DNA from: a virus
Reading direction: 5' to 3' (one strand)
Virus record (IMG/VR): IMGVR_UViG_3300045902_000281
Span: 1 to 32,107 of that record
DNA length: 32,107 bases
This document shows, piece by piece, positions 4,674-27,885 of this stretch. The position numbers and the translations under genes are program-made. The notes beneath the pieces were generated by a model. The model was not told the origin of the DNA, searched no databases, and saw only the letters and a program-made list of their open reading frames with translations. Position 1 is the stretch's first letter. Every line of letters begins with the position of its first letter.

Positions 4674-5845
4674 CAGACGCTCACCCAACTTGCGTCGTCG
4701 AGCAGGTAGACGAGAACGTTCACCGCGTCGGCGGGCGGCAGGCCGGCCCCCATCACCGCACCCGTCGCGAGCGGTGCTCCCAGGCCGTTCGTCAGGGTGA
4801 CGTCGACGACGCCGGGGACGGCCATGAGCAGCTCGACCACCTGCGACACGAGCACTGCCTCGCCGAGCCCGAGGGCCTCGAAAAACGCCTGGAGGTCCGC
4901 GAGCGCCTTGGCTCGCGCCGCAGTGCGGAACGCTGCCTTCACCTTGACCTGGCCGCGCACGTCGATCGGGTTCGCGGTTGCGTTGATGACCGACACGAAC
5001 GACCCGAGCGGCCGACGCAGCTGCACGTTGGCGACGGCCGCCGCGAGCGCGCTCGGCGACGCTGGCCCCGACGAGCTCGCGACGATCACGGTCACGGCCG
5101 GGAAGCCTGCGGTCACGTCGGCGAACGGGTCCTCCTGGACACGCGCTCGAGTGATCTCGTCCGAGGAGTCGAGCGCCCACTTGATGTAGGCCTCGCTGGG
5201 TCCCGTGGTCGTCAGCGTCGACCACTTGGACCGGCAGCGCAGCCTGAGGGACTCGTCGTCCTCCTCGTTGACGCCAGTCTGCGTGACCCATCCGAGCGCC
5301 GTCGCGACGCTGAGCGCCAGACCGGGGACCGGCGTCGCGAGCGCGATGGTGTTGCCGCTGACGTTGTAGGCCGCGCCCGGGGACTCGGCGCCGATGGTCA
5401 CCGCCACGCTACCCGACGGCGGCACGACGACGGCGCCGACGTTCCGGTACACGAGGTCCTCGTCGGCGGACGACGAGAAGATCAGCGCACCATCGGCGAA
5501 GCTGTGCCCGCCGCCGCTGGTGTCGGTCAGCGTGACGGTCCCGCGCGTCTGCACGGCAGGCTTGCGAGCCTCGTCGAAGTCGTCGAGCGCCTTGAGCGTC
5601 AGGGCATCCCCCGTCGCCCCGTCCTCCGCGCTGGTCCCGAGGACGCCCATCCGGGCGTACTGCGCTTGCACCTCCGACGCGTCAGCGATGGCATCGGCGA
5701 TGAACTCGAGCGTCGCCCGCGGCTCGTCGAAGGCGCCCCACGAGTCGACCGGGGAGCCGGCCGCCTGGAAGATGGGGATCGCGAGGGTGAAGACCTGCTC
5801 CCGCGTCATCGGGCGAATCAGGTCGGCGTAGGTAAGGGTCGCCAT
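4673..5845 (-). CDS. Baseplate J-like protein (Mu gp47 / P2 gpJ type, 390 aa)
   Basis: This is a wedge component of the contractile-tail baseplate. The start is the ATG at 5843-5845 (MATLTYADLIRPMTREQVF), coupled as TGATG to the gp25-like gene, and the product is 390 aa, normal for the family. Features seen are a helical N-terminus, an SSADEDLVYRNVGAV beta segment, a PGAAYNVSGNTI segment typical of baseplate J proteins near residue 160, and GVNEEDDESLRLRC followed by SEAYIKWALDSSDEITRARV near 200-240. The C-terminus has a QVKVKAAFRTAARAKALADL helix. It lies between the gp25-like protein and tail protein I, the canonical order. Confidence 0.92.
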   Translation of the reverse strand: MATLTYADLIRPMTREQVFTLAIPIFQAAGSPVDSWGAFDEPRATLEFIADAIADASEVQAQYARMGVLGTSAEDGATGDALTLKALDDFDEARKPAVQTRGTVTLTDTSGGGHSFADGALIFSSSADEDLVYRNVGAVVVPPSGSVAVTIGAESPGAAYNVSGNTIALATPVPGLALSVATALGWVTQTGVNEEDDESLRLRCRSKWSTLTTTGPSEAYIKWALDSSDEITRARVQEDPFADVTAGFPAVTVIVASSSGPASPSALAAAVANVQLRRPLGSFVSVINATANPIDVRGQVKVKAAFRTAARAKALADLQAFFEALGLGEAVLVSQVVELLMAVPGVVDVTLTNGLGAPLATGAVMGAGLPPADAVNVLVYLLDDASWVSV

Positions 5846-24365: not shown

Positions 24366-25442
24366 TCAGTCGTCGTCAGGCCGGTCACCAGCACGCTCGA
24401 GGAGCCGCGAGCTGCGCTCGATGTGCTCCTCGTTGCCGTTGCGAGTGCACTCGGCGTGCACCGCCATGTCGTCGTCGTGGAAGCTCACCTCCGCGATCCA
24501 GTCCTCGTCGAACCGGATCATGGGCAGGCCGCAGATCCCGCAGGCGTAGTCGTCGATCGTTGCGAGGAACGGCTCGCCGCGCAGCGTGACCCCGCCGGGC
24601 ACCAGGCCCGCCGCCCGCATGAACTCGAGAACGACCTTGAAGGGGTCGATGCGGCACCACCAGCCGGCGACGCGGAACACCTCGTAGCCGGCCGCCTCGA
24701 GAACCTCGTCGCGGCGACGATCTCGATTCGCGTTCGCGGGGTCGAGGTGGTGCTCGCCGTCGATCTCCAGAGCGAGCAGCCGCACCGCCGCGCCCTCGTT
24801 CGCCGCGACGATCCAGAGCTGGTCGACGACGTACGGCACCTTCCCCGGACGCGTCGGGTCAGGAACCACGTGCGAGCCAGTCAGGTGCAAAGCGCCGAGC
24901 CGCCGGCCCAGCATGTCAGGGCCGACCACGCACCCAGGCGCGCCATGCCGCACGAACGCATGCGCCGCGTGCCAGGCAGAGCGCTCCGCGAAGCTCACAC
25001 CACGATCGGCCCGGTCGGCGAGATCCTGTGGCACGCGGTACCCACGCTTTCGAGCCATCTGCAGCGCGAAGGCGAGCGAGGGCGGGTGCCGTGGGTTGTT
25101 GACCGGCGAGTCGTAGCCGCCCCCGATCGGAATCTCCCCTGCACGAACCGCAGCCACGAGCGTTGCGTGGTCGGCACCATCCTCGAAGTCGAACTGCGGC
25201 GATGGCGCTCCGCCGCGTGCAGCCTCGACCGCCGCGGCCAGAGCATCGGCCTCGTCCGCGATCTCCGAGACCCAGCGCAGCCCGCGCGACGGCGCGATGT
25301 GATGTTGGACCCGCAGTCGACAGGCCTCGTTGAGGCGATGCTCGATCCGCCGGCTCGGCCGCCGAAGTACGACGGCGCTGGTGCGAAGGTCTGCGCGGAC
25401 GCTGCGGTGCGCTGCCATCGCCTGCTCGATGTGGTCACTCAT
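24366..25442 (-). CDS. PD-(D/E)XK-like nuclease with zinc motif (358 aa)
   Basis: The start is the ATG at 25440-25442 (MSDHIEQAMAAH) because AAGGAGG lies six bases before it and it overlaps the helicase stop as ATGA; another ATG two codons earlier has poor spacing. The nuclease-like segment LLALEIDGEHHLDPANANRD, then RRDEVLEAAGYEVFRVAGW (about residues 235-275), matches the E-x-D-G-x-x-H...R-x-R-D-x-x-L-x-x-x-G-Y-x-V-x-R pattern of DUF559/Vsr-type PD-(D/E)XK enzymes. A C-x2-C / H-x2-C zinc motif follows (CGICGLPMI ... VHAEC). The N-terminal 230 residues are unknown. A DNA-processing role next to the helicase is inferred. Confidence 0.72.
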   Translation of the reverse strand: MSDHIEQAMAAHRSVRADLRTSAVVLRRPSRRIEHRLNEACRLRVQHHIAPSRGLRWVSEIADEADALAAAVEAARGGAPSPQFDFEDGADHATLVAAVRAGEIPIGGGYDSPVNNPRHPPSLAFALQMARKRGYRVPQDLADRADRGVSFAERSAWHAAHAFVRHGAPGCVVGPDMLGRRLGALHLTGSHVVPDPTRPGKVPYVVDQLWIVAANEGAAVRLLALEIDGEHHLDPANANRDRRRDEVLEAAGYEVFRVAGWWCRIDPFKVVLEFMRAAGLVPGGVTLRGEPFLATIDDYACGICGLPMIRFDEDWIAEVSFHDDDMAVHAECTRNGNEEHIERSSRLLERAGDRPDDD

Positions 25443-26926
25443 GTCCATCCTCCTTCGGAAGCGGCCTTCTCTGCGAAGAGGAACCGCTCCCCGATAAACT
25501 GAGCTTGCACGACGCCCATGGGTCCGTCGCGATGCTTGTCGAGGATGAACTCTGCCTCTTCCCGCCGAGCCCTTGCCGCGGTCGAGGACTTGTCGCTCAT
25601 CCGCAGCCAGGGCCGATAGATGTGCAGGATCTTGTGCGCGATCTGCTCGATCGCAGCAGCGCCGCGGATGTCGTTCTTGACCGGCCGCCCTTCGCGCTTC
25701 TGCGCGTCGCGGTTGTATTGGGCCAAGACCATCAGGTGCAGGTCGAGGTCGACCGCGATGCGGCCGAACTCGCGAACCATCTTCGCGATCGCCGCGGCCT
25801 CCGACTCCGCGTCCGGGAACTCCATGATGTGCATGTGATCGACGACGAGCAGTCGCAGTCGGGCGCCACGGGCACGGAGCCGCGCCTGCGCCTTGCGAGC
25901 GGCCGATCGGACCTTCGTGATGTCCTTGTCGGCGTCGTCGACCTCGAGCAGCAGCGAGCGCCAGGCATCGATGGATGCGTCGACGAGCGCCACTCTCTCG
26001 GGTGCAACCTCGCGAAGCGGACGGTTCTCTTCGTCGCAGCCGGTCATCAGCTCGTGCATCGAGAGACCACGCTCGAAGCCGTGCTCCTCGGCGAGCTTCT
26101 GGGACAGCATCACAATCCCGCGGTGCGCGATGCGCTTGCGGGGCATCTCCAGGGTCAGGTACGCGGCGCCGATCTTCTCGCCGCCGAACTTGCGCCCTGC
26201 GGCGAGGAACTGTGCGACGGATTGCGCGAAGACGCTCTTGCCGCCGCCGGTGTCGGCTGCGACGTAGGTGGTCTGGCCTACGCCGAATCCGTGCATCAGA
26301 GCGTGGAGCTTCGAGAACTGCGCGCGCATCCCCCACGGCTCGCGCTTGCCTTCCCACTGCTCGACGAGCTCCTCGCGCACCTCGCGAGCGATCTCGGGCG
26401 CCGAAGCCATGCGCGACTCGCCTGCGGACTCGGCGATGGACGCGAGCCGTTCGGCAGACTTCGCAAGCCACTGATTCGTCTCGCCGTAGTCTCCGAACCC
26501 CTCGGCGGCGATCATCTGCGCTGTCTCGATCGCCCGACGGACACGCGCCTTGTCTCGAACGATGGTCGCGTGCGCTGCGACGTTCGCCACCGAGGGCGTA
26601 GCGTCCACGAGTTTGACCAGGTAACCGACACCACCGACGGCCTGCAGGCGATCGCGATCGCGCAGCTCCGCGGCGACCGTCTGCACGTCGACGGGACGGC
26701 CAAGAGTCTTCACCGCGAGAATCGCATCGAAGATCCTGCGGTGCGCGTCGCCGTAGAACGCGTCGCTCGTGGGCAGCACCTCGAGCACGGCGTCGAGCGA
26801 CGTGCTGTCGGTCAGGATCGCCGAGAGCACCGCGGCCTCGACGGCTTCGTTGTGCGGCGGCACGCGGCCGGCGACGTCGATCGCGATGACCTGCGGCTTC
26901 CGTGTGCGCGGGTCGAACTTCACCAC
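25439..26926 (-). CDS. dnaB: DnaB-type replicative DNA helicase (495 aa)
   Basis: This unwinds DNA at the replication fork. The 495-aa product uses a GTG start at 26924-26926 (a second GTG is next to it) behind GGGAGG. The N-terminal domain has VPPHNEAVEAAVLSAIL (residues 22-38), the DnaB N-domain signature. The RecA-like domain has Walker A ADTGGGKS at 224-231, YLTLEM at 256-261, Walker B LLVVDHMHIM at 359-368 and LAQYNRD at 401-407, followed by DIRGAAAIEQIAHKILHI. The length is normal. It follows the initiator-like gene, a lambda/P22-like arrangement rather than a Mu-like one. Confidence 0.94.
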   Translation of the reverse strand: MVKFDPRTRKPQVIAIDVAGRVPPHNEAVEAAVLSAILTDSTSLDAVLEVLPTSDAFYGDAHRRIFDAILAVKTLGRPVDVQTVAAELRDRDRLQAVGGVGYLVKLVDATPSVANVAAHATIVRDKARVRRAIETAQMIAAEGFGDYGETNQWLAKSAERLASIAESAGESRMASAPEIAREVREELVEQWEGKREPWGMRAQFSKLHALMHGFGVGQTTYVAADTGGGKSVFAQSVAQFLAAGRKFGGEKIGAAYLTLEMPRKRIAHRGIVMLSQKLAEEHGFERGLSMHELMTGCDEENRPLREVAPERVALVDASIDAWRSLLLEVDDADKDITKVRSAARKAQARLRARGARLRLLVVDHMHIMEFPDAESEAAAIAKMVREFGRIAVDLDLHLMVLAQYNRDAQKREGRPVKNDIRGAAAIEQIAHKILHIYRPWLRMSDKSSTAARARREEAEFILDKHRDGPMGVVQAQFIGERFLFAEKAASEGGWT

Positions 26927-27885
26927 CGCTCGTTCCTCCCCGACTCACGCGCCGCTTGCTGCGGCGGCTTGCGCCTGCCTGCCTGCAGGTCGCCGAGGAT
27001 CCACGCAAGCTTCTGCGTAAGCCTCGCCACGCGCTGCGGGCCGTCGGACAGTGGGTGCTTGGTCGCGAAGCCCTCGACCTCCGCGAGCAGCTCGCGGCCA
27101 AGCTGTCGGCGGTCGAGGCGATCGGCGGCGGGCTCGGCTTCGAGCGTGACCTGGAGCCTCGCCGCTGCGAGCTCGAGGTCTTCGTCGCCGAAGAGCTCGG
27201 GGCGACGACGAAGCTCCTCGGCGATCGTCTTCGCCGCTGCCTGGTCCTTGGGCGTCGGGGGGGGGGGGGGGGGGGGAGGCCCGCTCGCGGGCCCTATTTC
27301 CTTCCCTTCCTTCTCTTCCTTCAAATCCTGAGAACGCGCGCGCGTACGCGATGGCGGCTTCTGGTCGCCTGAGTAATTCCGTGGGGTTAGCTCGCTCACG
27401 TGGTTCGGCGCCGTCCCGCCCGTGGCCTGGCCGTGGCCGAGCGGTGGCTCGCCCGTGGCCTGGCCGTGGCCGAGCGGTGGCTCGCCCGTGGCCTGGCCGT
27501 GGCCGAGCGGTGGCTCGCCCGTGGCCGAGCGGTGGCTCGCCCGTGGCCCGTCGACCCCCCCCTTGCCTGGCCCCCGACGGTGCGCGGCGGCGAGGTTCCG
27601 GATCACGAGATAGGCACCCTCTCGGACGATGAAGTTGTCGCCATCGAGCAGGACATCGAGCTTGCGGCCAATGAGCTTCCGCTCGTCGGGATGCGCCCCC
27701 AGCAGGCGGCAAAGCGTCGCGACCATCTTCGCGTCGTCGATGCCGACGAAAATGCGCCCGTCGTCGTCGGCCAGTCGCAGGAGCTCGTCGCCGAGCCCTC
27801 GCACGAGCACCGGAAGCGCCTGCCACTCCTTCGAGGGCCGCAGGAACAGCTTCCTGTACGGCTCCTTCGACCAATCCCGAGCCAT
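26920..27885 (-). CDS. Putative replication initiator / helicase loader with tandem repeats (321 aa)
   Basis: The start is the ATG at 27883-27885 (MARDWSKEPYRKLFLRPSKEW), overlapping the upstream stop as TGATG. Residues about 1-100 form a winged-helix-like domain (ALPVLVRGLGDELLRLADDD, then DDAKMVATLCRLLGAHPDER and KLDVLLDGDNFIVREGAYLVIRNL) of the kind found in phage initiators such as lambda O and DnaD-like proteins. A low-complexity part follows: three copies of ATGEPPLGHGQ, then a Lys/Glu stretch and eight prolines from a 20-base C run. The C-terminal 110 residues are helical. It sits just upstream of the DnaB gene. Family placement is inferred. Confidence 0.7.
   Translation of the reverse strand: MARDWSKEPYRKLFLRPSKEWQALPVLVRGLGDELLRLADDDGRIFVGIDDAKMVATLCRLLGAHPDERKLIGRKLDVLLDGDNFIVREGAYLVIRNLAAAHRRGPGKGGVDGPRASHRSATGEPPLGHGQATGEPPLGHGQATGEPPLGHGQATGGTAPNHVSELTPRNYSGDQKPPSRTRARSQDLKEEKEGKEIGPASGPPPPPPPPTPKDQAAAKTIAEELRRRPELFGDEDLELAAARLQVTLEAEPAADRLDRRQLGRELLAEVEGFATKHPLSDGPQRVARLTQKLAWILGDLQAGRRKPPQQAARESGRNERW
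27257..27276. repeat. 20-base homopolymer (C run on the coding strand)
   Basis: A run of 20 G on the plus strand codes for prolines in the initiator-like protein (GPPPPPPPPTP). Runs this long are prone to slippage in vivo and in sequencing. The reading frame is intact at the length given. One alternative frame stays open to 26945, so a slip would replace rather than cut the C-terminus. Confidence 0.95.
27292..27328. other. Pyrimidine-rich strand-asymmetric tract
   Basis: The plus strand is almost pure pyrimidine over about 37 bases (CCCTATTTCCTTCCCTTCC and on), with only a few A, and is richer in A+T than its surroundings. It lies between the repeat array and the 20-base homopolymer. In lambda ori such a tract lies beside the iterons. 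Confidence 0.7.
27421..27541. repeat. 11 tandem 11-bp units (33-bp higher-order repeat) inside the initiator gene
   Basis: Three identical 33-bp units run 27421-27453, 27454-27486 and 27487-27519, followed by a 22-bp unit to 27541. Each 33-mer is itself three related 11-mers (CGTGGCCTGGC, CGTGGCCGAGC, GGTGGCTCGCC), and the short unit lacks exactly one 11-mer, so the array is 11 units of 11 bp. A twelfth degenerate unit (CGTGGCCCGTC) follows at 27542-27552. An 11-bp period is close to one helical turn. It encodes the repeated ATGEPPLGHGQ. Confidence 0.9.

Follow-up and report, generated by a model that had tools for sequence, protein, structure and literature searches.

A candidate replication origin of single-turn 11-bp iterons within the initiator-like gene of a GC-rich phage

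Both the placement of an origin within the gene of its own initiator and the binding of an initiator to 11-bp repeats are known already. In phage lambda and its relatives, ori-lambda is embedded in the O gene (PMC7466680), and the gene of pSK41 Rep, a RepA_N protein of 319 aa, holds the origin in its central part (PMC5703833). Tandem 11-bp direct repeats are bound by the initiator at the bind locus of pMV158-type rolling-circle plasmids (PMC3387028). The window analysed here is a single metagenomic record of 32,107 bases (IMG/VR virus record IMGVR_UViG_3300045902_000281). Its genes lie mostly on the minus strand and include those for terminase, portal, head protease, major head protein, tail sheath, tape measure and baseplate, a set that identifies a contractile-tailed phage. 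By analogy with the plan of lambda O/ori and of pSK41 rep, we consider it highly probable that this phage carries a theta origin inside its own initiator gene.

In lambda, which served as a control, the four annotated iterons occupy nt 349-433 of the O gene, and the least stable and most asymmetric stretch follows at nt 437-476. In the window, the array occupies nt 337-468 of the initiator gene and the low-stability tract nt 552-591. The likeness to lambda ori that the first-pass annotation had drawn is thus borne out by iterons inside the initiator gene, followed 3’ by an asymmetric tract of low stability at nearly matching gene positions, and it extends to the helicase-recruitment gene immediately downstream. 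There are, however, clear differences. Lambda has four 18-bp iterons spaced 20-24 bp apart, whereas the window has twelve GC-rich units of 11 bp; the lambda tract is AT-rich and adjoins the iterons, whereas that of the window lies across an 83-bp gap and has 40% GC in a genome of 70% GC; and lambda encodes the helicase loader P next, where the window encodes DnaB itself. Furthermore, the initiator has no detectable sequence homology to that of lambda, and with a unit of 11 rather than 18 bp and no Pfam or PHROG match it falls outside the lambda O family proper.

The architecture of pSK41 Rep is close to that predicted for the window protein, both being of similar length (319 and 321 aa) and having a winged-helix N-domain (about 105-120 aa), a helical C-domain and a central linker in which the origin is encoded (residues 121-199 in pSK41, 106-208 in the window). 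The pSK41 origin, however, consists of four Rep boxes with A+T-rich tracts, as opposed to twelve GC-rich single-turn units in a phage. The pMV158-type plasmids differ more, as their initiator is a rolling-circle nicking enzyme, their repeats lie outside the rep gene and they have no DnaB neighbour. What is new here is the single-turn, GC-rich 11-bp unit, a tract that is asymmetric in purines and pyrimidines rather than AT-rich, and an unrecognised protein family. In the literature that we searched, neither the family nor the layout is described; an earlier mention may exist, for instance in a review from 2006 on the replication modules of phages (cited in PMC6669507).

The initiator-like gene and its neighbours

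The putative initiator gene (26920-27885, minus strand, as are all features below) was recognised from its translation and from relatives in viral contigs and in genomes of Myxococcota, and its product is replisome-organiser-like. An AlphaFold2 model built with 30 homologues divides the protein into three parts: an N-terminal winged-helix DNA-binding domain (residues 1-105, 27571-27885; mean pLDDT 84.5, confident over residues about 10-103), a linker predicted to be disordered (residues 106-208, 27262-27570; most of 110-200 has a pLDDT below 50), and a C-terminal domain of four helices modelled with moderate confidence (residues 209-301, 26983-27261), which presumably contacts helicase or primase. 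Array and tract both lie wholly within the DNA encoding the linker, and as this linker is flexible, the coding constraint on them would be light.

The winged-helix character that had been read into the N-terminus is therefore predicted by the model, and structural matches point the same way. Among the best of these were the N-domains of RepA_N plasmid initiators (5kbj, 4pql, 4pt7 and 4pta; Z 6.3-6.6 over 86 residues) and, beside them, CRP-type winged helices over about 64 residues, with which 5kbj_C (Z 6.6, 86 residues) ties. As the initiators (Z about 6.5) match no better than CRP-type proteins, these comparisons support a winged-helix fold rather than membership of a family. The window protein matched no Pfam or PHROG family; RepA_N (PF06970) was unmatched both by this protein in Pfam and by any of 30 N-domains. 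Foldseek gave no significant match for the full-length model, and only generic winged-helix matches, none significant, for the N-domain alone. Direct searches for the initiator gene among annotated phages and plasmids yielded no match. A likeness to the Phage_rep_org_N replisome organisers (PF09681), which the window protein itself does not match, may exist through one homologue, L061, whose weak match (3.6e-4, 21.0 bits) falls just under the cut-off of 23.3 bits. Of the remaining homologues, some have matches among PHROG families for replication initiation and for DnaD-like proteins.

The gene had been placed just upstream of a DnaB helicase, and this is indeed the next gene downstream (25439-26926), overlapping the initiator stop by 7 bp and carrying both the N and C domains of a replicative DnaB (Pfam DnaB 2.9e-27, DnaB_C 4e-32; phrog_19 6.5e-64). 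The helicase shares 37% identity with a cellular DnaB from a deltaproteobacterium (L010), encoded next to ribosomal-protein-like genes, which hints at a host origin of the phage DnaB by capture. A homologue of the initiator gene lies in a 10.3-Mb genome whose phylum is also that of a deltaproteobacterial MAG (L010, L015), and this suggests that the host may belong to the Myxococcota.

The iteron array and the adjoining tract

The array (27418-27549) consists of twelve tandem 11-bp units with the core GCCAC, as established by TRF, register layout, synonymous shuffles and motif counts; register layout places two degenerate units, a 13th and 14th, at 27396-27417. While the tandem, related 11-mers reported in the first-pass annotation are real, their number in register is thus twelve and not eleven. 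The 33-bp copies that it described were recovered by TRF as a period of 33 at 27417-27526 (3.3 copies, 100% match, score 220), which is by far the top tandem repeat in the window, with sub-periods of 11 and 22 bp that reach 27550. Read from 27549 to 27418, the twelve units give the minus-strand consensus NRGCCACSGSY. RGCCACSGSY has 18 matches in the window, twelve of them within the array and in one orientation, where 3.0 would be expected in the window and 100 shuffles reached at most 7.

The identical 33-bp copies reflect a recent duplication, and slippage alone could yield them. Since the linker is also predicted to be disordered, one might read the array as a minisatellite, born of slippage or serving the protein, without any function in DNA. 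It is the 11-bp sub-structure, and not the 33-bp identity, that calls for an explanation at the level of DNA. As 11 is not divisible by three, the unit runs through all reading frames. Moreover, the self-match of the gene at lag 11 is 0.69 against 0.53±0.04, a value reached by none of 1000 synonymous-codon shuffles that preserve both protein and codon usage, and none of 1000 reached the observed value at lag 22. The 11-bp period is therefore not set by the encoded protein.

Beyond the gap lies the candidate DNA-unwinding element (27295-27334), which is strand-asymmetric, with purines on the coding strand. By nearest-neighbour energy it ranks first of the 32,107 bp for low stability at both 30 and 40 bp, and at 60 bp it is among the top 0.2% of positions. 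No 30-mer of the record is more asymmetric than the one from 27293, in which 29 of 30 bases are pyrimidines. The pyrimidine tract noted beside the array is thereby upheld, and proves to coincide with the least stable 40-mer. An alternating CG run directly precedes the tract, both in the window (27335-27345) and in L002, its closest viral relative (5556-5567). Abutting the tract on its other side is a GC inverted repeat, GGCCCGC-GA-GCGGGCC (27278-27293), and one also occurs soon after the tract of L002 (5613-5627); in both, it is possible that this forms a priming or blocking hairpin. The C20 homopolymer to which a part in the origin had been given is present on the coding strand (27257-27276), in frame and read as prolines, with a length that is unreliable in assembly. 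No homopolymer as long was found among the homologues whose sequences were inspected, and the run is probably incidental, outside the mechanism.

Cumulative GC skew had been named as a further check. Its minimum at 27.0-27.9 kb does fall near the array; its amplitude, however, lies within that of block shuffles (p 0.25), so that skew is uninformative here, speaking neither for nor against an origin.

By analogy with lambda (PMC7466680) and pSK41 (PMC5703833), from which we infer binding, melting, helicase loading and origin use, these elements could work together as follows. The winged-helix domain of the 321-aa protein would bind the twelve GCCAC units, which face about one side of the helix because their spacing is near one turn. 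The resulting nucleoprotein array would strain the DNA and melt the low-stability purine/pyrimidine tract, whereupon the helical C-domain would recruit the phage’s own DnaB, the product of the next gene.

Helical spacing in homologues and cultured phages

Profile searches led to relatives in Myxococcota genomes, and from those to 32 viral contigs; in the first Myxococcota scan, weak matches (L016-L028, E above 1e-4) were left out as homologues. One genome scan with the DnaB alignment yielded only cellular DnaB genes (L010, L011), and the window DnaB alone as query found no match in viral contigs. Of 34 non-redundant homologues, the window included, 18 are followed downstream by a DnaB relative; in the remainder, the downstream gene is unmatched by this DnaB query or the contig ends too soon.

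The closest viral relative, L002, is 34% identical and shares the gene order, with DnaB next. It carries about twelve degenerate 11-bp units of a different sequence (RCATYGGYSGA), then a purine tract, at a matching position. Its self-match at lags 11 and 22 was reached in none of 1000 synonymous shuffles, whereas lag 33, the protein period, was reached in 70 of 1000 and is not significant, so here too the periodicity is a property of the DNA rather than of the protein.

Across 30 non-redundant homologue genes, the cores GTCAC/GTGAC cluster mostly at gene nt 340-500. They number 242, compared with 153±7 in synonymous shuffles, and form 232 helically spaced pairs where shuffles give 40±7 (maximum 68). 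Same-strand spacings peak at 10, 20-21, 30-31 and 40-42 bp, with all reading frames in use; such distances correspond to helical turns, and most of them are not multiples of a codon. Helically spaced sites occur in both orientations. A phased 5-mer statistic was significant in 20 of 40 initiators, the window scoring highest, against one of 57 other ORFs from the same loci. Half of the homologues thus fail this strict test taken alone, many of these carrying other repeats, and two (L005, L015) have iteron-like words with no clean 11-bp phase. In 18 of 33 genes, against an expectation of 6.7, the lowest-stability 40-mer lies no more than 190 bp to the 3’ side of the midpoint of the array. Compared in this way among relatives, iterons and low-stability tract are kept in place; homologues lacking repeats, which had been named beforehand as contrary to an embedded origin, did not emerge as a pattern. 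As homologues with other sequences retain the helical spacing at the matching place, and phased enrichment is absent from 56 of the 57 control ORFs, we regard a minisatellite lacking DNA function as very unlikely.

In two homologues (L035:496-1749, minus strand, and L067:3501-4844) the linker is interrupted by a T5orf172/MUG113 (GIY-YIG-like) domain that separates winged helix from iterons, and in both the sites lie beyond this insert. The strongly diverged initiators of L015 (gene nt 655-690) and L042 (gene nt 503-540) have in common, directly after the purine tract, AGAGATCAGATCCCCCC and then a C/G hairpin, in different reading frames. A scan of all viral contigs found the exact 17-mer of these two only in the contig of L042, and it is therefore no general component.

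The C-domain of one homologue matches 46 phage records. In six genes of cultured phages (L075-L080, with L075 from Marinomonas phage P12026 and L077 from Cobetia phage Carin1, two that are similar in layout) the N-termini look unrelated to that homologue, and most of the six have short repeats or an iteron-like array together with a purine-rich or low-complexity tract at a matching gene position. Ab9 has 22-bp units, Carin1 has TCCGCA spaced 11 and 22 bp apart, and PBR31 has an 11-bp repeat; among the cultured-phage genes, only PBR31, Carin1 and VvAW1 pass the phased 5-mer test. The comparison of sequences is suggestive of a layout shared by cultured phages with a related C-domain, and it suggests that N-domains may have been swapped as modules together with their own binding sites. 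In the deposited record of Vibrio phage 1.183.O (L080:1842-1871), a CRISPR spacer is annotated within a DUF1376 gene, over the repeat region; this is probably a misread repeat array.

Other functions for the array, and what an embedded origin would mean

Iterons often double as control elements, and a winged-helix protein that binds repeats in its own gene would also be compatible with autorepression. The array might then be an operator through which the initiator regulates itself or copy control, instead of a start of replication. Such an operator would, however, lie 340 bp inside the gene and not at its start, and behind the array comes the record’s least stable tract, an order that matches lambda ori, all of which makes this explanation highly improbable to us. 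Clustered repeats are employed by partition systems and packaging sites as well, yet it is extremely improbable that the repeats act in the RNA or serve segregation, packaging or recombination, given that the terminase gene is 7 kb off, that the scan of the genes turned up none for partition, and that what is conserved is the helical spacing of sites in double-stranded DNA, in either orientation.

The first-pass interpretation of an origin inside its initiator gene is thus supported, at the level of sequence, by the outcome of those computational predictions that could be tested with power. It is conceivable, and we offer it tentatively as the doubtful extension of this interpretation, that the locus represents an undescribed, widespread class of origin in GC-rich phages, defined by five-base iterons, mostly GTCAC/GCCAC, repeated at a single turn (10-11 bp). 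In its full form, a winged-helix initiator would stack once per turn into a continuous filament on iterons that lie where its own gene encodes the disordered linker, and the place of the AT-rich element would be taken by a purine/pyrimidine tract, in some cases accompanied by a GC hairpin.

An origin embedded in this initiator gene would extend the plan of lambda and pSK41 to phages without recognisable homology to either, in which the iterons alter their sequence yet retain helical phase. It would also provide a sequence rule for finding the origins of GC-rich phages that are uncultivated, for which neither AT-rich elements nor GC skew are of much help: in a winged-helix gene before DnaB, the linker is to be inspected for helically spaced short words, and then for a purine/pyrimidine tract. 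As the layout seems to recur in cultured phages whose C-domain is related, this rule may be tested at the bench.
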